The translations under genes were made by a program, and so were the position numbers. The notes beneath the pieces were generated by a model. It worked only from the letters and a program-made list of their open reading frames with translations. It had not been told where the DNA came from and made no database searches. A stretch of DNA of 27,290 nt from IMG/VR virus record IMGVR_UViG_3300021084_000412, positions 1 through 27,290 of that record, one strand, 5' to 3'. Positions 1,212-24,704 of this stretch are shown here, in pieces; position 1 is the stretch's first letter; each line of letters opens with the position of its first letter. The stretch is from a virus.

Positions 1212-4200
1212 TTAAACAAACATATCTTTAATTTCTGTAATTCCGTCAATAACATCTAAACTTTCGTTTAGTCTTTCAAAGGTCATTACTCCGTTTATGC
1301 TTGAAATAATACCATTACAGTAATCTAAACTAGCATTTGAGTAAATTCTACCATTGAAAGGTGTCGCTGTAGAATCGTCGATTCCTGAAACATTTCCAGT
1401 AGGCATATCGTATCTAACGATTTGCTGAGTATTGTCGCTATTCCCGTCTGACATCCCTATAAATACAGTATCGGCAGCTTGTGGCGTGTTTACTGATTTC
1501 GCAAAGAAAACAGATTTCACTGTATTTGGGTCAGCTGGGATAGACAAACTAGACAAGCTAGTTCTATAGTCGGTACTACTTACAGAAACTTTCTGATAAG
1601 GCTCTAAAAAATCACCGTAAAGCAAATCAGGGTCGTCAGTTGTTGGGTCAGAATATCTGATTGTTACAAACTCATTAGCTACTCTATCAAAAAGAGTAAT
1701 AAATCCACCTACCAATATTCCGGTTGGGTCTAACATTTCATTAACAGCACCAGCAATTTTAGCGATTGGGAATTCATCTGAAATATCCCACATTTGTTTT
1801 GTTCCTGTAATGTACTGAGTGTCACCAATAACATAAGCATCCATAGTTACAGTTCCGTCATTAGCTTTACTGTATTTCACAATACACAATGCTGGCTTAT
1901 AAGAAGGGGTTGTAAATCCAGTTACTCTACCAATAATCAAATGATTACTAGTGCTTAAAGGTATTACTGAACTGATAGAAACCAGTCTCTCACCTTCTTT
2001 GAAATTCGTTTTATCCCATGAGCTGTTACCAGTCTTTTTTAAAGCTGTTACAGTTACGTCTAAATCGCCAAGTTCCAGCACCTCAACATTTCCTTCAACA
2101 AATTCAGAAATCCTTCTTTGTGGTGTTCCTGTCAATCCTCTATCGTATTCTGTAGCCTGTAAAATACTTGTACCTCCTTCGTTGAAATAAACACCGTTAG
2201 ATTGGCTTATGTAGTAAGGTGCATTTGATTCAAATCTATCATAAGTCACACCGTCGTAAGTGTTGTTTACCAAGTTTCCAGCTCTATAGAAGTTGGATTT
2301 GTTCGGTAAATCTTTAGATGATAAAAACCTGTTTGTCTTGATAAAACTAGCTTTCACAGGGTAAATATTTGTTCTTCCGATATCCTCCATAGTAGGGGCA
2401 GATTCAACCACGTATCCTACACCACCGATGTACAATAACGGGTGAGATAATGCAATAACAAGACCTCTAGCCTCTTCCTCAGTTGTTGGATAAAATATCA
2501 TTTCACTAACCTCGTAATTATCTAAATCAGCTAAATAAACAGCAGCTTCAGCGGTTACTGAATCTTTGTCGATTTTAGTCTTAGCTGTAACGTGGTCTAT
2601 TTCTGTTCTTTTAAGAAACTTAATACCAGTAGAAAAATTCACTACGGTATTTTCTTCAGCCCAATACTGAACCAAAACCCTTTGTCTAGAATCCTTATAA
2701 GAGTCTTCTACTCTAACCTCTTCAGAAACAAAAACATCCTCTCCGTTTGATACGTGAATTCTGAAAGAATCCTTGTCAGAAAACCCTAATCCAGCAATAT
2801 CTATTTCAGCTTCGTAAACCGAGTAATCCTCAACTCTTACAGTTGTAATTGCTTTACTTGTTGAGTTTGATGGGTTATTGTATTTTTCTTCTAGAAAATC
2901 CTTTTCATCTTGCAAAATCAATTTACTACCAACAACGTCCGTAGGTTTAAAAATAACCCCATCGATATCGACTCTAAGTGTTTCGTTCAATAAATCCTCT
3001 GCATCAAAAGAATCGACCCCTCCTATGTAAACAGGCGTGTAATATCTCTTTTTAAAAGAACCGTCCTCGTTTCTATAGCTAGTAGCTTTTATCTCTTCGA
3101 AATACAATCTATCCAAGTAACTAACTGTTTCTGTAACTAATTCAACTTTCCCGAAAGGTCTAGTAACTATCAAATCAATAATCTCCTTAGTTTCTAGGTT
3201 TTCAGCAACAATTGTAACTGGTTTACTTGATTTAATTTGAACAGCTAAGTAATCTGACGACTTAAGCGTACTGTGACCCTCGTACACAACTTCCTTTAAG
3301 CTTTCACATGACAACAACTGTTCTTCTATAGGATATTCATTTAAGTGGCTTAAATCGTCTAATTTCAAGGCAAATCTAAATGAGTTAGATTTTGAGCACT
3401 CAAATTTGTTCAAATCCTCTTGGGTAGAATCTAAATTGCTTCCAGCTTTGACATTCTCAATCAATACAGTCCCGAATGAATCCGTAGCAGTGAAAGAGTA
3501 ATCTTTGTTTTTATGTAGACCAGTCGTGATTAAGTAGTCGGGTTTAGTCAATGATACCGTAGCAACTAAACTTCCATTTAGAGCTGCATAAATATATCCA
3601 TTTCTCTCACCATAAGTACTGGTGTTAAAAGCAGAATTACTCAACACTAAAGTAGTTACAGAACCAACGTCACCCTCTAAAGTATCCATAGTAATAAACT
3701 CATCAACCTTGACAGGTGAATCGATTGTAGACACACTGTGACCAGCTGTTTGATTTTGGAAAACCATTTCAGCTACTTGACCAGCTACATCCCTTGGGAT
3801 TTTACAAGCATCCAAAAATACTCCTATTGGGTCAGCTATAAGAGAGAGTGAATCTCCTGTACTGTCAGTATCTAAATAAATTCTAATCTCATTTCCTCCA
3901 TACTCTCTAAATCCGTGAAATAATTTACACACGATGAACTCATCACTGATTGAGTTATCGAAATCACTACCTTTGAAATATCTAACATCAAAAGAATTAG
4001 GTAAATCCGTATTAGGAACTTCACTAGTTGTAAGCGTAATTTGTTGACTCAATTGATTTGTAGCAGTTGTTCCACTGTCCCAAATAACTGAGTTATTCCA
4101 AGTAGCCCCGTTAGTACCTGTTCCTGAAGCCCATGAGCCTGAGTATAAGTGTAGTTCAACACCATTAGAGACGTTTACGACTCTTAAACCATATTGATTA

Positions 4201-18679: not shown

Positions 18680-18710
18680 ACCTTTAATAACTAATCAAAA
18701 ATTACACATC

Positions 18711-18908
18711 ATGCTAGATAACAATTCAAGAAGTGACGATAAAATGGGTTCAATCAATGTAAGAGTTGATAAGGATTTGAAAAGAGATTTTAAAGCAGCT
18801 GTTGTTGAGAATGGTCTAAATCAAACAGACATAATCGTCTCAATGTTAGAGAGTTATGTTCAAAAAACAGCAGAAAGAAAAGCTAAGAGATTAGCAGAAA
18901 AAAAATAA
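18711..18908 (+). CDS. Ribbon-helix-helix DNA-binding protein, probable regulator
   Basis: A 65-residue protein with the ribbon-helix-helix pattern: a short strand SINVRVD (14-20), helix A KDLKRDFKAAVVENG (21-35), a turn LN, and helix B QTDIIVSMLESYVQK (38-52), followed by a basic tail. Such proteins bind DNA as dimers through the paired strands and usually repress promoters. It is the first gene after the divergent promoter pair, so autoregulation or control of the late operon is plausible. An in-frame ATG at codon 12 would still keep the full domain. Some phage terminase small subunits also use small DNA-binding folds, so a role in packaging-site recognition cannot be excluded. Confidence 0.75.
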   Translation: MLDNNSRSDDKMGSINVRVDKDLKRDFKAAVVENGLNQTDIIVSMLESYVQKTAERKAKRLAEKK

Positions 18909-18914
18909 GAAATT

Positions 18915-19439
18915 ATGCCTATAGACGACTTTGACTACGATATCGACGAAATGGAAGAGAAAGCCAAAAGTCGAAATACTGGTTCGAATGAAGACGATGG
19001 CGTGGCATCTGAAGGGTTTCTAGACCAACCAGCCCCTTTTTATAACGACCTCGAAAGAGAGGAAGCTCATTTAACAAAAGAGGAATTGGAAGAAAGAGGT
19101 GATGATTACCACTTTGCTAAGCTGATTGCAGCTTTAGGAGGTGCTCACGCTGCTAGGATGAGTGACCTATTACACAGGATGCCTGATAATCAATTCAGGA
19201 CTACGTATATGACATTAATCGAATACGCTATTCCAAAACTTGCAAGAACTACAGCAGAAGCTAAAAACGTCGATAATAAAATCGAAACACACGTTGAGGT
19301 TCAAGCGAGGGATGGCTCAGAAGCTATCGAAATTGCAAACGAAATTAACTCACTGAATGAGGAAAATAAAGTAAGGCAATTACACAAACCTACTCTAGAA
19401 CAATTACTAGAGAAACAAGGTGAAACAGCAGAAGAATAA
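18915..19439 (+). CDS. Terminase small subunit candidate
   Basis: A 174-residue, acidic protein directly upstream of the nuclease and large terminase genes. The first 65 residues are very acidic (DDFDYDIDEMEEKAKS). The central helical part includes DNQFRTTYMTLIEYAIPKLARTTAEAK (about 92-118); a length-conserved Y-x-LIEY-x-PKLA pattern like this is seen in small terminase-type proteins of Bacteroidota phages. The small subunit recognises the packaging site and feeds DNA to the large subunit. No helix-turn-helix motif is obvious, so the call relies on position, size and that helical motif. It begins 6 nt after the regulator gene. Confidence 0.65.
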   Translation: MPIDDFDYDIDEMEEKAKSRNTGSNEDDGVASEGFLDQPAPFYNDLEREEAHLTKEELEERGDDYHFAKLIAALGGAHAARMSDLLHRMPDNQFRTTYMTLIEYAIPKLARTTAEAKNVDNKIETHVEVQARDGSEAIEIANEINSLNEENKVRQLHKPTLEQLLEKQGETAEE

Positions 19440-19460
19440 ATATTAACGACGACAAAATTA

Positions 19461-19841
19461 ATGCAAATGAACGATTACTCAGAAGACAGAATCCAACAAG
19501 ATTGCTATATGTGGTTCAACAACAATTTCAGAAATTTAAGAAAGATGTTATTTGCCGTTCCTAACGGTGGAAAACGTGATGTCGTAGAGGCAAAAAGAAT
19601 GAAAGCAACTGGAACGGTTTCAGGTGTCTCAGATTTGATTTTGGCTTACGGTGGTACTTGTCACTTTATCGAAATGAAAACCTCTACAGGTAGACAAGAC
19701 GACGAGCAAGTAAAATTTCAAAAAGGTGTTGAAGCTCAGGGCATGAATTACTACTTATGTAGAACTTTAGAAGATTTCATACGAATAGTAAAAAACATCG
19801 TACATGAAACTGAATTTCAAAACCACAAAAGTATATCATAA
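19461..19841 (+). CDS. VRR-NUC domain nuclease
   Basis: A 126-residue single-domain nuclease of the PD-(D/E)xK superfamily. The VRR-NUC hallmarks are in order: DRIQQDCYMWF (9-19), FAVPNGGKRD (31-40), EAKRMKATGTVSGVSDLIL (43-61) with Asp58, FIEMKT with Glu71 and Lys73, and a DEQVKFQ segment with Gln83. Stand-alone VRR-NUC proteins in phages are linked to structure-specific cleavage such as resolving branched DNA. Its 3' end overlaps the large terminase by 38 nt, so the two are probably co-translated. Clearing branches before packaging is an inferred role. A second in-frame ATG two codons on is an alternative start. Confidence 0.9.
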   Translation: MQMNDYSEDRIQQDCYMWFNNNFRNLRKMLFAVPNGGKRDVVEAKRMKATGTVSGVSDLILAYGGTCHFIEMKTSTGRQDDEQVKFQKGVEAQGMNYYLCRTLEDFIRIVKNIVHETEFQNHKSIS

Positions 19842-21114
19842 GATAGTCAATGCTTATAACACCTACGACTGGAACTTAGAACGAACTCTCGATGGAGGGT
19901 TCGACGTGGTTTGGGGTCGTAAGTATAAATACATTATTAATAAAGGTGGTTCGAGGTCGTCCAAGACTTACAGCTTACTTCAGTATTTTGCGTTGATTAT
20001 GCTCAAACGAAAAGATTTAAAAATCACCGTTTGGAGAAACGAGAAAGTAACTTGCAAGGGTACTGCCATGGAGGATTTTAAAAAGATTCTCTTAACTACT
20101 GACGGACTTTTTGATAAGTTCGAAGAAAACAAGACTAAAGGATTTTTCAGGTGTAAATCTACAAACGCTATGATTCTTTTTGAAGGTGGTGACAATGACC
20201 AAAAAGTACATGGTTTGGCTCAGCACATTTCTTTCTTTAATGAGGCTTCAGAATTTGGTCTAGATGTTTACAGACAGATTTCACAACGTACCGAGGAAAC
20301 TTGTTTCTTTGACTTCAATCCATCTAAACAATTTTGGCTAGAATCTTTCAAAAATAACGATAGAGCTATTTTTATGCACTCGACGTATAAAGATAATGCT
20401 TTTGTTACCTCATCCATTATCGAGAGATTGGAAGGGTATTTGCCATGGAATCCTGAGGATATGCACTTGCCTAAAGAAGAAAGGAGACCACACGAGAAAA
20501 ACGTGGCAAATGGTACAGCTTCGGAATTTCACTACCTAGTTTATTGTGAAGGATTTGGTTCTGAGAAACCTGACCTTATTCACGGTGGTTGGAGAAAATG
20601 TAAGAATGACCTGTTCGATATGCTTCCTTTTGAAACTACACTTGGAATCGATTTTGGTTCAGCAAAACCTACAGCAGTTGTGAATGTGAAATGGGATGGT
20701 GGAAGAAATTTCTACGTTGACCAATTATGTTACGAGCCGATTAGAAAACTACATACAGATTTAGCTGAGACAATTATCTCAAAAGTTCAAGGATGCTGTG
20801 ATTACGAAGAGGTTGAATCAGTTTGTGATTCAGCTAAGAAATCGTACATGAACGACCTTACCAATGGTGGATTCCAAGTTATCCCAGCAAAAAAAGGTAA
20901 CGATTCAATCCAACGTGGAAATGATAAAATCGATGAATACAATATTTATGTAACAGAACGCTCGAAAGATATCCATGAAGAACAGGAAAACTACACTTTC
21001 CTGAAAGATAGATATGGTTTGGCTACGGACAAGCCCGACCCACATTGCGAAGACCACCTCATGGATGCTATCAGGTATGCTATAGAGTGGATTTGTAGGT
21101 CAAATGGTTTGTAG
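19804..21114 (+). CDS. terL: Terminase large subunit (packaging ATPase/nuclease)
   Basis: A 436-residue packaging motor. The N-terminal ATPase shows a Walker A-type loop GGSRSSKT (48-55), a Walker B segment ISFFNEAS (142-149) with Glu147, and a coupling motif FFDFNPS (168-174). The C-terminal RNase H-like nuclease has LGIDFGSAKPT with Asp283, CDSAKK with Asp342, and HCEDHLMDAIRYA with acidic Asp417/Asp421. All parts expected for a headful or cos-type terminase are present and intact. The gene overlaps the nuclease gene upstream and is followed by a rho-independent terminator. It points away from the portal gene, which is unusual. Confidence 0.95.
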   Translation: MKLNFKTTKVYHKIVNAYNTYDWNLERTLDGGFDVVWGRKYKYIINKGGSRSSKTYSLLQYFALIMLKRKDLKITVWRNEKVTCKGTAMEDFKKILLTTDGLFDKFEENKTKGFFRCKSTNAMILFEGGDNDQKVHGLAQHISFFNEASEFGLDVYRQISQRTEETCFFDFNPSKQFWLESFKNNDRAIFMHSTYKDNAFVTSSIIERLEGYLPWNPEDMHLPKEERRPHEKNVANGTASEFHYLVYCEGFGSEKPDLIHGGWRKCKNDLFDMLPFETTLGIDFGSAKPTAVVNVKWDGGRNFYVDQLCYEPIRKLHTDLAETIISKVQGCCDYEEVESVCDSAKKSYMNDLTNGGFQVIPAKKGNDSIQRGNDKIDEYNIYVTERSKDIHEEQENYTFLKDRYGLATDKPDPHCEDHLMDAIRYAIEWICRSNGL

Positions 21115-21131
21115 GCTGTTAAACTTCAATA

Positions 21132-21159
21132 ACACCCACCACCCACCACCCACCCCACA
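21132..21159. repeat. C-rich tandem CACCCAC tract
   Basis: Three CACCCAC-type units followed by CCCC lie just before the terminator. The minus strand reads as repeated GGGTG/GGGG runs with one- to three-base gaps, a pattern that can form a G-quadruplex. No gene is here. Confidence 0.7.
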
Positions 21160-21189
21160 CCCTCGATTTAGTTATCGGGGGTTTTTTTT
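21160..21189 (+). terminator. Rho-independent terminator after the large terminase
   Basis: CCCTCGAT pairs with ATCGGGGG (one T-G pair) around loop TTAGTT, followed by eight T. It lies 45 nt after the large terminase stop. The stem-loop is nearly the same as the one closing the small-gene operon at 25077. Confidence 0.9.
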
Positions 21190-21416
21190 GTGTGTTTCAG
21201 GCTGAGGGAGCGATTTCCAGCCCTCCTAAGCGATAGTTTGGTAGTAAGTAGCACAAGATGTAGGCTGAGGTGTGTTTAAGGCGGTGTGGTAGCCCGAGAG
21301 TGAGCCAGTCAGAAAACAAGCAGCCAAACTTCAATTTTTGGGATTAGTTTGGGACTATCTCGTCAATTTTGGGTCTCCTGTCAGGTCGTTTTTGAAGTTT
21401 AAGAGCCTTTCAAAAA
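21190..21416. other. Gene-free stretch with short repeats
   Basis: No credible ORF was seen. The region holds two copies of GGCTGAGG (about 21200 and 21264), three TTTGGG-type words between 21335 and 21373, and an inverted pair AAACTTCAA (21326-21334) / TTGAAGTTT (21392-21400). AAACTTCAA also occurs at 21121 and at 23699. Base composition is richer in G than the coding regions around it. Confidence 0.6.
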
Positions 21417-21713
21417 GGTGGTAAGGTGGTACGACGGTGGTACGCCTTTTTTTTCGTTTACCACCTCGGAAGCCCACGCTACCACTACAAAATCGAGCAA
21501 AAGTGGTAAGGTGGTAAGAAAAAAGCCGTTTGACTTCCCACAGAAAAAAAAGTGCCGTTTTTTTTTAGTGCACCCACAATCTTCCATATTTATACCACTT
21601 TCTTATTATTATTAATTAATAATAAATAAAGAGTTAATAATGAGGAAGTTAGCTCAAAAAAAAGGTGGTAAAAAAGGTGGTAAGCCGAGTGGTATGGGGT
21701 GGTAAAAGTGGTA
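21417..21713. repeat. GGTGGTA iteron-like array around an A/T block
   Basis: Ten direct copies of (G)GTGGTA begin at 21417, 21425, 21436, 21503, 21510, 21664, 21676, 21689, 21698 and 21708. Three inverted copies (TACCAC or TACCACC) begin at 21459, 21480 and 21593. Spacing inside the clusters is 8-12 bp. Two clusters flank a block made almost only of A and T (about 21586-21645). Such arrays with an A/T block are typical of protein-binding sites such as replication origins or packaging sites, but the function here is not shown by the sequence. Confidence 0.8.
21606..21625. repeat. Perfect 20-bp A/T palindrome
   Basis: TTATTATTAATTAATAATAA is its own reverse complement. It lies in the middle of the GGTGGTA array, in a stretch of about 40 bases with almost no G or C, and could be a melting element or dimeric protein site. 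Confidence 0.85.
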
Positions 21714-21864
21714 AGGGGCGAGATTGCGATACGGGGGAAAAATTGGGAAAAAAATGTGTCCGCCACTAGAGCCAGCCCCCCCTCCCCTGTTTTTTTAAGG
21801 GACTCCTAGCCTTATTTAGAATGAATACAAATATAGTCACTTGTCTAATTTTGTCTAGATTATA
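21714..21864. other. Gene-free stretch with homopolymer runs
   Basis: Contains runs of G5, A5, A7, C7 (21776-21782) and T7, then an A/T-rich stretch leading into the promoter. No ORF or clear secondary structure was found. Confidence 0.5.
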
Positions 21865-21896
21865 TTAGGTGGGAACGTATAAAAGCCTTATCTTTG
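21865..21896 (+). promoter_or_regulatory. Promoter of the small-gene operon
   Basis: TATCTTTG (21889-21896) is an exact TAnnTTTG box. A TTA, one base off the TTG consensus, lies 21 nt upstream. Transcription would start near 21902, giving a leader of about 65 nt with a hairpin in it. Confidence 0.6.
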
Positions 21897-21933
21897 AACA
21901 GAGGGAACGACAGACGGTCAACCCCATAACAGA

Positions 21934-21948
21934 CTGCCAAAATGGCAG
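21934..21948 (+). promoter_or_regulatory. Leader hairpin or operator
   Basis: CTGCCA-AAA-TGGCAG is a perfect 6-bp inverted repeat in the leader, 19 nt before the first gene. It could be an RNA hairpin controlling translation or an operator for a dimeric regulator. Confidence 0.5.
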
Positions 21949-21967
21949 CATCTAAATATATCATATT

Positions 21968-22480
21968 ATGACAACAGTTTATCCACACACCGCAAGACTA
22001 CAAAGATGCAAGGCTAGCGTGCCTTTTAGCTTAGCCCTAAACAAGTATATACAATCGTGGTACGACCAGCACAAGGACTACATTGTATTCACAGACACAG
22101 ATGATTTTGATGAAAATGATATCGAAGGGACTTTTAGACGTCACAAGCTTAGATACTCTGAGACAGGCAAAATACACGTTTGGACCGGTTCATCTGAGAA
22201 CACTATCTTTGGAGACCCTAAAATCAATCATATGTTTAGAGCGTGGCACGATTGCACTCATATTGTTAACGACCTAGGATATGAGCCACTTAATGAAATC
22301 TTAGTAGGTAAAATACAAGCTGAGCAGCTGCCGTACTCATGGAGATTTGAACGTGATTTAATTGATGCCGAGGTAACAGGACAGGTACTATACTTTGTCG
22401 CAAATAACGAGTTTATAAGCGACCAACGTCAATTCACATTGGACTATCTTAACAACAAGCACCGTTCTATATTATGCTAA
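21968..22480 (+). CDS. Conserved-type protein with WHDCTH motif, possible metal-binding enzyme
   Basis: A 170-residue protein, first in the small-gene operon. The distinctive part is HMFRAWHDCTHIV (88-100) with His94 and His98 in an H-x3-H arrangement, followed by DAEVTGQVLYF (133-143) with Glu135 and then SDQRQFTLDY (151-160). Two His on one helix turn and a Glu on a later helix are what a small metal-dependent helical protein could use, but no known family was confidently recognised. The N-terminal 80 residues are mixed and acidic in the middle (TDTDDFDENDIEG). Its stop overlaps the next start by 7 nt. Function is unknown; an early role is suggested by the promoter placement. Confidence 0.8.
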   Translation: MTTVYPHTARLQRCKASVPFSLALNKYIQSWYDQHKDYIVFTDTDDFDENDIEGTFRRHKLRYSETGKIHVWTGSSENTIFGDPKINHMFRAWHDCTHIVNDLGYEPLNEILVGKIQAEQLPYSWRFERDLIDAEVTGQVLYFVANNEFISDQRQFTLDYLNNKHRSILC

Positions 22481-22668
22481 GCGATAGAGATAAGGCAATC
22501 AGAAAGGAAATTAACATAATTGCAGCCCTCTATAATTTGGGGGTTGCATCCAACCTCACAACGATTGTAAGCGACTCAAACGAGACAGCAGACCAATTCT
22601 ATACGGTTACATCTTTTATGGCTTCAGGAATAAGATATACACATTATTTCAATAACTCAAAACATTAA
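22474..22668 (+). CDS. Small protein of unknown function (64 aa)
   Basis: A 64-residue protein whose ATG lies inside the last codons of the upstream gene (ATGCTAA overlap of 7 nt), a strong sign of translational coupling. The first half (RDKAIRKEINIIAALYNLGVA) is a basic, amphipathic helix. The second half is polar, with Tyr and His residues at the end. No motif was recognised. Confidence 0.7.
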   Translation: MLSDRDKAIRKEINIIAALYNLGVASNLTTIVSDSNETADQFYTVTSFMASGIRYTHYFNNSKH

Positions 22669-22677
22669 TATATAGTT

Positions 22678-22950
22678 ATGATAAATATACATCGCTCAGT
22701 GCAAGGATTCGACACTTCCGTAAGACTACATACTTTAATATATTGCTATCCGTTCAGTCTAGTTGAGATAGTTTACAATTCTGGGACCGGAAAGAAGACG
22801 GCATTCGCTAGAGTGGGATTCGATAAGGAAGGACGCAGAATAATCAAGACAAAACAAGCATTGCCTAAGAAGGTTCACGAGGTTATAAACAAACATTTTT
22901 TCAACTGTGATATATTCATAACTAAAAATAGACGCAATGCAAGTATTTAA
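22678..22950 (+). CDS. Small basic protein of unknown function (90 aa)
   Basis: A 90-residue, basic protein beginning 9 nt after the previous stop. Residues 17-35 are hydrophobic but broken by Tyr and Pro (LHTLIYCYPFSLVEIVY), so a buried strand is more likely than a membrane segment. The middle (GKKTAFARVGFDKEGRRIIKTKQALPKKV) is rich in Lys and Arg and could contact nucleic acid; that is inference. No family was recognised. Confidence 0.7.
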   Translation: MINIHRSVQGFDTSVRLHTLIYCYPFSLVEIVYNSGTGKKTAFARVGFDKEGRRIIKTKQALPKKVHEVINKHFFNCDIFITKNRRNASI

Positions 22951-23007
22951 TAAAAAATGAAGACAACAGCTAAAAAAGAAAATTACTAATCAATTAAATT
23001 AAAAGTT

Positions 23008-23640
23008 ATGCGTATAAATATCAATTTTGGAGGGTTTTATGGTTCATGCCATGAATCATTAATAGATGCCGTCATAGAAGACGAAAAAGAGTATTATTCA
23101 AATGAATATGAGAATAGAGTTAAATTAAAAAAATACCTACAGAATAATAATATTGAGTTTTGGGAGCTGTATAATTACAAAGATATACATTTGGAGTACT
23201 CTAAACTTTGGTTAGGGTTATTTAAAGATTGGTTTAAGAATGAATTTGATTTAGATATACCTTTAAAATTTATTGAGTTATCAAGTCCCAAATATTACAA
23301 CTATTCAACAGACGTTATAATAGCTTCAGTAAAGCTAAAAAAACACGAAATAAAAAGCTTATTACATAATGATGTTTTAAATATAGAATGTGATTTATTA
23401 GATAGATTTGAAAATATGGTATCAAGAGTTACGACTTCCGGCAGTGGTTATTTTGCTTTTTATGATTATGATAAAGTTATAAATATGATAGACAAGGACA
23501 ATAAAAGAGTTTGTTTTGAGTGTTTATTAGATGTTTTGATTGATATATTCAATAATGAGTTTCTACAGTTTGATGATTTTAACGACCATCTATATAATCT
23601 TGTTGCCATCGATAGAAATAAACACAATTACAATTATTAA
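23008..23640 (+). CDS. Phage hypothetical protein with GGFYGS...H and SPKYYNYSTD motifs
   Basis: A 210-residue acidic protein. Two stretches stand out: INFGGFYGSCHESLIDAVIEDE (5-26) and FIELSSPKYYNYSTDVIIASV (about 88-108). Proteins with a similar pair (an FYxSxH-type start and an S-P-x-Y-N-x-x-T-D signature) are, from memory, widespread as uncharacterised genes in phages and mobile elements; this should be verified. The rest is mostly helical, ending in an Asn/Tyr-rich tail. It is the largest gene of the small-gene operon and more A/T-rich than its neighbours. No enzymatic motif is certain. A counter-defence or host-takeover role is possible but unproven. Confidence 0.8.
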   Translation: MRININFGGFYGSCHESLIDAVIEDEKEYYSNEYENRVKLKKYLQNNNIEFWELYNYKDIHLEYSKLWLGLFKDWFKNEFDLDIPLKFIELSSPKYYNYSTDVIIASVKLKKHEIKSLLHNDVLNIECDLLDRFENMVSRVTTSGSGYFAFYDYDKVINMIDKDNKRVCFECLLDVLIDIFNNEFLQFDDFNDHLYNLVAIDRNKHNYNY

Positions 23641-23713
23641 AAAACTAATCCACGACCTAAAACAATAATACAAGTATTATAAATAGAAATTTAACTTTAA
23701 ACTTCAATAAATT

Positions 23714-23977
23714 ATGAAAGTAACAACAAAAAAAGAAACAAACGAATTTAAACCCTTTACAATAGAGGTAACAATTGAGTCAATTGATGAGTTAAAAGAA
23801 TTGTATAGTAGAATGAATGTATCCGATGATACAGTCAATAAAAGAATGGACAATGATTGGTGTGATGACAACGTATGGGACCTATACTACATAACATCTG
23901 AATTGATGGATAAACACGTATGGGACCTATACCACACAACATCTAAGTTGATGGATAAACACAACATAACAAATTAA
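23714..23977 (+). CDS. Small acidic protein with a tandem 15-residue repeat (87 aa)
   Basis: An 87-residue protein. After a strand-like N-terminus (FKPFTIEVTIESIDELKELYSRM) the C-terminal part holds two copies of a 15-residue unit: VWDLYYITSELMDKH and VWDLYHTTSKLMDKH (residues 54-83). The copies differ by a few bases, so the duplication is fairly recent but not new. A 73-nt leader precedes it. Nothing identifies the function. Confidence 0.7.
   Translation: MKVTTKKETNEFKPFTIEVTIESIDELKELYSRMNVSDDTVNKRMDNDWCDDNVWDLYYITSELMDKHVWDLYHTTSKLMDKHNITN
23873..23962 (+). repeat. Tandem duplication, 2 x 45 bp
   Basis: Two directly adjacent 45-bp units inside the 87-residue gene (23873-23917 and 23918-23962), each beginning GTATGGGACCTATAC and ending with TTGATGGATAAACAC, with a few differences between. 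The unit keeps the reading frame. Confidence 0.9.
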
Positions 23978-23994
23978 TCTTAAAATATAACATT

Positions 23995-24321
23995 ATGGAA
24001 AATTCACAACACGACGTCGCAACCGAAATGGTACACAGACACCTCAACAATATAAACAAAGTACTTAAGAAAATTTTGGAATTAGAGGGAGACCAACTAA
24101 ATGACAAATATCGAAGTTTAAACGGCTGTAGATGTTCGGCTGAGGTCTTAAAAACTAGCCTATCTGAAAACAGCGATATAAAGACCGTGATTAAGCTTTT
24201 AATTATCCGTGAGGCTGAGACAAAGAAAATAGCACAAAATGCCTCAAAAGGTGCTGATTTTGCCTATTGGGACGGATGCCACCGATATGACCGACTAGCT
24301 GTAAAAGAATTAACCGTATAA
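23995..24321 (+). CDS. Helical protein of unknown function (108 aa)
   Basis: A 108-residue, largely helical protein. Long helices are likely at 8-33 (VATEMVHRHLNNINKVLKKILELEG) and 60-90 (SDIKTVIKLLIIREAETKKIAQNA). It ends with a Trp/Tyr/His-rich segment (FAYWDGCHRYDRLAVKEL). Four Cys and His residues are scattered (GCRC, GCH), but no clear zinc site is formed. The ATTATG start context matches the neighbours in this operon. Confidence 0.7.
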   Translation: MENSQHDVATEMVHRHLNNINKVLKKILELEGDQLNDKYRSLNGCRCSAEVLKTSLSENSDIKTVIKLLIIREAETKKIAQNASKGADFAYWDGCHRYDRLAVKELTV

Positions 24322-24370
24322 GATGAAAAAAGCAATCGACACATTTTTAAACTTTTAAATATATTATATT

Positions 24371-24466
24371 ATGAAAACATCAGTAAAAAACCTCACTTCA
24401 AACAAAGGAACCAAAATTCCAAATAAAATAGACAAAGGGATATATAAATTAACTGACTTAAATTAA
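24371..24466 (+). CDS. Very small basic ORF (31 aa)
   Basis: A 31-residue ORF (begins MKTSVKNLTSNKG) with the operon's usual ATTATG start context, ending 4 nt before the next gene. It is lysine-rich and has no motif. The tight spacing and start context support translation, but its shortness means it could be a leader peptide or chance. Confidence 0.45.
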   Translation: MKTSVKNLTSNKGTKIPNKIDKGIYKLTDLN

Positions 24467-24470
24467 CATT

Positions 24471-24704
24471 ATGAAAGTAAAACATTTGACAACTGGATTA
24501 ATCACAAAAATAAATATTAATTTTGTTATACGTGTCTACGAACATAACAACGACAAAGCAATCATAAAAGGTGCTGGACAGATTCACAAATTCATAGGAG
24601 AGGAAAAAACGGAAAAGATTTTTAATAAGGCTTTACAATCTCCTAATAGAAAACCTACTTTCAAATTAAGGGATTCTTACAAATTAGTATTTCATTCAAA
24701 ATAA
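24471..24704 (+). CDS. Small basic protein of unknown function (77 aa)
   Basis: A 77-residue, basic protein 4 nt downstream of the 31-residue ORF. The first part (VKHLTTGLITKININFVIRVYEH) looks strand-rich. The rest has a helical GEEKTEKIFNKALQ segment and a final strand. No family recognised. The layout suggests a small alpha/beta domain. Confidence 0.65.
   Translation: MKVKHLTTGLITKININFVIRVYEHNNDKAIIKGAGQIHKFIGEEKTEKIFNKALQSPNRKPTFKLRDSYKLVFHSK

Follow-up and report, generated by a model that had tools for sequence, protein, structure and literature searches.

The virus record IMGVR_UViG_3300021084_000412 (27,290 bases, with no end repeats; "the window" below means this whole stretch) holds a fragment of a Bacteroidota phage that is tailed and siphovirus-like. 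Behind its gene for the terminase large subunit (TerL), we find a non-coding array of thirteen short repeats (iterons) of the hexamer GTGGTA surrounding an AT-rich core. Comparative sequence evidence makes this array a probable replication origin, whether the only one or one of two, with a probability that we place at about 0.8. A replication origin was also what an initial annotation of the window had suggested. The suggestion is supported by arrays of the same anatomy in other phages, which lie beside primase-helicase genes and track the replication gene rather than the terminase.

The array comprises 13 copies of GTGGTA in 296 bp (21418-21713), with the consensus (A/G)GTGGTA(A)(G). Ten copies are direct (starts at 21418, 21426, 21437, 21503, 21511, 21665, 21677, 21689, 21699 and 21708) and three are inverted (21459, 21480 and 21593), and the spacings in order are 8, 11, 22, 21, 23, 8, 82, 72, 12, 12, 10 and 9. 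The first six spacings belong to a left set of seven iterons on the plus strand (21418-21516; five direct and two inverted), and the last four, of about one helical turn, to a right set of five direct copies (21665-21713, plus strand). Between the sets, a lone inverted iteron (21593-21598, minus strand) borders the AT-rich core. An extra copy lies at 21286. The array accounts for 13 of the 23 copies of GTGGTA in the whole window, and the longer GGTGGTA was observed 10 times against an expectation of 1.5. When the 853-bp region was dinucleotide-shuffled 300 times, no 6-mer exceeded 7 copies, and 7 was also the maximum in 20 shuffles of the whole window. These coordinates and shuffles confirm the thirteen-copy, ten-direct and three-inverted motif of the initial annotation, and the gene-free region that it had put at 850 bp was measured at 853 bp.

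The core (21589-21657) is the presumed melting site. Its best 40-mer is 37/40 A/T and its longest stretch of A/T alone measures 28 bp (21603-21630), so the 40-bp A/T-only block first described is shortened, while the perfect 20-bp palindrome assigned to it stands. This palindrome, TTATTATTAATTAATAATAA (21606-21625), is exact, no longer palindrome occurs in the window, and one of 20 bp arises in 0.24% of shuffled 70-mers. It was not evident in the few cores of relatives that we read by eye, a reading rather than a systematic comparison, and for this reason is probably dispensable for function.

Repeats of this kind can also arise in genes. A pattern scan of viral contigs for GTGGTA returned at least 120 stretches, many of which are coding, direct-only, Gly-rich repeats, and a 21-codon open reading frame (ORF; MRKLAQKKGGKKGGKPSGMGW, 21640-21705) overlaps the right iteron set of the window. 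An origin of the array as a chance or coding repeat (a Gly-rich protein or low complexity) nevertheless has a negligible probability, given its mixed orientations, the lack of any ORF of at least 90 aa in the array region of the gap, and the 0 of 300 shuffles with more than 7 copies. The short ORF is probably a by-product of the repeats. The same scan gave GTGGTA arrays that adjoin a VapE gene (contig L133) and an AAA_25 helicase gene (L126); both contigs were picked by the GTGGTA pattern, and the independent evidence there is the neighbouring gene only. Separately, a non-coding GTGGTA array in L173 (7232-7565) lies upstream of a ParB-N/methylase fusion gene.

A profile of three TerL proteins was used to collect 80 viral contigs, which were scanned for any 6-mer densely repeated within 350 bp. 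Many of them hold a comparable array with a different motif (GTTACA, TGTAAA, GGTAAC, TACCCA and others) that is likewise non-coding, of mixed orientation and AT-rich at its centre. Distant relatives retain the layout of 9-14 short iterons over ~250-300 bp surrounding an AT-rich core. Outside the window, these contigs hold 16 non-coding arrays with 8 copies or more. Eleven of the 16 adjoin the gene for a VapE-like protein, a Prim-Pol+DUF3987 protein or an AAA_25 helicase, or lie one to two small genes away from it. The remaining arrays are those of L007-L010, which also carry a VRR-NUC nuclease and a related TerL, and that of L082. A search of the records of seven relatives for the VapE family found none.

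The association with replication genes was also seen in a census of loci fetched by their initiator and not by an array, with copy thresholds (7 and 8) set after the first loci had been viewed. For initiators of the Prim-Pol/DUF3987 type, an array with 8 or more copies lies within 800 bp in 71 of 80 loci (L221-L300). In the 70 loci with both sides scorable, the array was exclusively downstream in 41, exclusively upstream in 24 and on neither side in 5, and no locus had arrays on both sides. With VapE-type initiators, 7 or more copies were found downstream in 42 of 56 loci, compared to 2 of 52 on the upstream side and 9 of 394 windows elsewhere. Downstream arrays with 8 or more copies number 72; their length is about 250 bp at the median, and their most AT-rich 40-mer is central, with a median of 95% A/T. 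A search of bacterial genomes for the DUF3987-type initiator returned five contigs of metagenome-assembled genomes, all titled Bacteroidota/Bacteroidetes or Psychroflexus.

Since the window array starts 303 bp past the end of TerL, it could instead be a cos or pac packaging site whose repeats bind the small terminase subunit (TerS), as the initial annotation had also considered; the array of L082, which directly precedes a TerS-like gene, fits such a role. Ten complete Flavobacterium phages provide a natural comparison, although they are closely related and represent few independent events. All four phages with a VapE primase-helicase carry nine copies of GGTAAC directly after VapE, with one nuclease gene between in three of them. 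In all six with a TOPRIM primase, the GGTAAC array is absent and there is no VapE. The TerS/TerL genes of these phages form two allele sets, each of which is present in both the VapE and the TOPRIM group at 99-100% identity. The array is inherited with the replication gene, not with the terminase, in these phages, which argues against a packaging site. The loss of the array from relatives that keep the flanking genes, named at the outset as evidence against an element of this kind, does occur, since some Flavobacterium phages keep TerS/TerL without it; the same phages have also swapped their initiator, and the result therefore points to replication. Together with the census arrays, which adjoin primase-helicase genes, this makes packaging quite improbable. 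VRR-NUC is annotated solely in the VapE-plus-array group of these phages, and the window has a VRR-NUC gene too.

Several DUF3987-type initiators have weak helix-turn-helix (HTH) matches at their C-terminal extremity. Across 72 loci, similarity in iteron content correlated with C-terminal identity at 0.34 after correction for identity over the remaining protein (null maximum 0.14). For 27 dereplicated initiators, a partial Mantel test of the C-terminal domain against the iteron gave 0.298 (P=0.0005), and the C-terminus showed a stronger correlation (0.34) than 12 other protein segments (up to 0.23). Initiator pairs that share an iteron are slightly more alike in their bodies as well. GTTTAA arrays pair mostly with the C-terminal ...LGVSLQMIYKYIKEL, whether the array is upstream or downstream, and TGCGCA arrays pair with ...LGISRRTSQNWIKEF. 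A per-residue ranking of the HTH was noisy, with several top columns near-invariant and driven by one outlier sequence, and we therefore claim no residue-level code. The covariation supports a model in which the initiators would bind their iterons via the C-terminal HTH.

A parallel to the position of the window array is in L008, a 46-kb contig that has related genes for TerL, VRR-NUC, portal, head and tail. In it, two GTTACA arrays of similar spacing lie about 12.7 kb apart. One (L008:7746-8034) is upstream of VRR-NUC and TerL, and the other (L207:5549-5779) lies shortly behind genes for a helicase and a D5-like primase-helicase. The D5-like helicase was identified by ORF reading and PHROGs, and a search for relatives of it elsewhere matched itself only. 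The neighbourhood of the window array resembles that of the terminase-side array of L008, although it lies behind TerL where the L008 array precedes it, and the window array would correspond to this terminase-side array. The check for two arrays covered L008, contig edges blocking it in L007, L009 and L010. Two arrays in one phage also suggest another explanation, that the window array is a secondary site which shares the iterons of a true origin located, with the initiator gene next to it, in the missing half, and which serves initiator control (handcuffing or transcription control). We consider this unlikely, as the window array shows the full origin anatomy, including the AT-rich core, and the fragment holds no second array. 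Inverted terminal repeats were observed in two contigs of this set, of about 127 bases in G001 (L006, L209) and of 1571 bases in G002 (L007, L208), the latter spanning a TTGACA array together with most of the VRR-NUC gene region. These could be an assembly effect or a real inverted repeat around a replication segment.

An array upstream of an operon could also serve as an operator or silencer for a phage regulator, or as a partition-like centromere. A candidate regulator is encoded 2.5 kb away, a ribbon-helix-helix (RHH) protein (18711-18908, plus strand) with weak ParG/Arc-like matches. RHH-type regulators commonly bind upstream of their own gene, where the RHH gene here has no GTGGTA. The partition-like site proposed initially is disfavoured as well, since the arrays of relatives track the initiator and are AT-rich at their centre, and the window proteins that were scanned, from an incomplete fragment, included no ParA-like partner. 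A regulatory or partition role is therefore very unlikely.

The initial annotation knew of no described element with this motif. As far as we searched, this holds for the exact GTGGTA motif; the layout, in contrast, matches the published origins of phage-inducible chromosomal islands (PICI), including Staphylococcus aureus pathogenicity islands (SaPI) (PMC6092414, PMC7581432). In the window, as in those origins, iterons flank an AT-rich core, with seven on the left, five on the right and one edging the 37/40 A/T segment. PICI/SaPI origins are served by a self-loading initiator helicase, often primase-fused, that reads the iterons by its C-terminal domain, as shown for SaPI Rep and SCCmec Cch2 (PMC7581432), and the evidence from the relatives' initiators is indirect, in that their C-terminal HTH covaries with the iteron. 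In many relatives, the array also follows the initiator gene directly on its 3' side. Primase fusions with VirE (PF05272) and DUF3987 domains have been predicted as novel helicases whose C-terminal winged helix might recognise the origin (PMC5862659). SCCmec Cch2 is alike in being a D5-like helicase whose C-terminal domain binds short direct repeats (AAGTG) downstream of its own gene, and differs in having three 5-nt iterons only, in a chromosomal cassette whose in vivo replication was not demonstrated in that study (PMC7581432). Other features depart from the PICI/SaPI pattern: the window array is preceded by TerL and not by an initiator, the array is upstream of the initiator in many relatives, and these are phage genomes rather than satellites, the window having its own portal, major head, tape measure, TerL and lysis genes. 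For two of these reasons, the lack of an adjoining initiator gene and of satellite character, we do not file the array as a PICI/SaPI origin.

Origins of iteron plasmids and lambda-type phages resemble the array in having an AT-rich melting block with repeats of the initiator's site beside it. They differ in that their iterons are about 17-22 bp, their initiators lack helicase and primase domains, and their sites are one-sided.

By analogy, the best reading is that the array works like a PICI/SaPI origin, with iterons bound by the initiator. The initiator of the window phage is thought to be a primase-helicase, encoded by the phage at a locus that would lie beyond the 27-kb fragment. It would bind the 13 GTGGTA iterons flanking the AT-rich block, open this block, and then both load as helicase for replication and act as the primase.

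Several observations weigh against the origin reading. Its main weakness is that the phage's initiator is not seen among the genes of the fragment, in which no primase or helicase was recognised; the gene adjoining the array is instead TerL. The terminase-side arrays of L007-L010 are likewise away from any initiator, and in L082 a GTGCCA array (3687-4025) is directly upstream of the TerS-like gene, with no initiator in the part read. Both main iteron sets of the window have the same orientation, compared to opposed outer sets in several relatives. No GTGGTA array has a known bound protein.

The organisation of the replication gene and origin in PICI was described in 2018 as not shared by any other known bacterial replicon (PMC6092414), and we found no description of origins of this kind in Bacteroidota phages in the open-licence literature. 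The comparison presented here suggests that this layout, held to be special to satellites (PMC6092414), is common in Bacteroidota phages, a link, if so, between the replication modules of satellites and phages. We regard the chances as even that many of these phages use PICI-style iteron origins whose motif diversifies with the initiator C-terminal HTH, a readable protein-DNA code, and that a window-like lineage moved or duplicated its origin to the terminase side. The layout can serve as a search rule for the origins of uncultured phages, and the covariation of iteron and HTH is open to direct test. Among cultured Flavobacterium phages, the mumin, mymlan and snusmum groups offer a clear example of the array, so the prediction becomes bench-testable.

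The minus strand of the window has genes for endolysin, holin, tail, tape measure, major head and portal proteins, and from 18711 onward the plus strand encodes the Arc/ParG-like RHH protein, a 174-aa protein (18915-19439), the VRR-NUC nuclease (19461-19841) and TerL (Terminase_3/Terminase_3C; 19804-21114). The 174-aa protein had no match in a family search; a short conserved stretch matches L006, L007, L009 and L010, and it is possibly the small terminase subunit. The closest TerL proteins of cultured phages are from Flavobacterium and Bacteroides phages, at no more than about 35% identity. Scans with TerL or with the 170-aa protein that opens the downstream operon found no close relatives, and window positions 18700-24700 had no nucleotide match in cultured phages. 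GC-skew across the fragment flips sign near 18 kb, where gene orientation switches, and is thus uninformative on the origin.

The gap behind TerL (21115-21967) contains no recognised gene. Right behind TerL, a plus-strand hairpin with a T-tract (21159-21189) resembles an intrinsic terminator, at a hairpin count barely above that of shuffles. No RNA families or tRNAs were found within or close to the gap, and promoter matches in the gap region were no commoner than chance. The kilobase containing the gap (21001-22000) has a G+C content of 43%, compared to 27-41% elsewhere in the window, despite the AT-rich core. The plus-strand operon then starts with the gene for the 170-aa protein (21968-22480; phrog_7806, function unknown), which is distantly related to proteins of Caulobacter, Pseudomonas, Vibrio and other phages, in many cases encoded close to one of the record ends.
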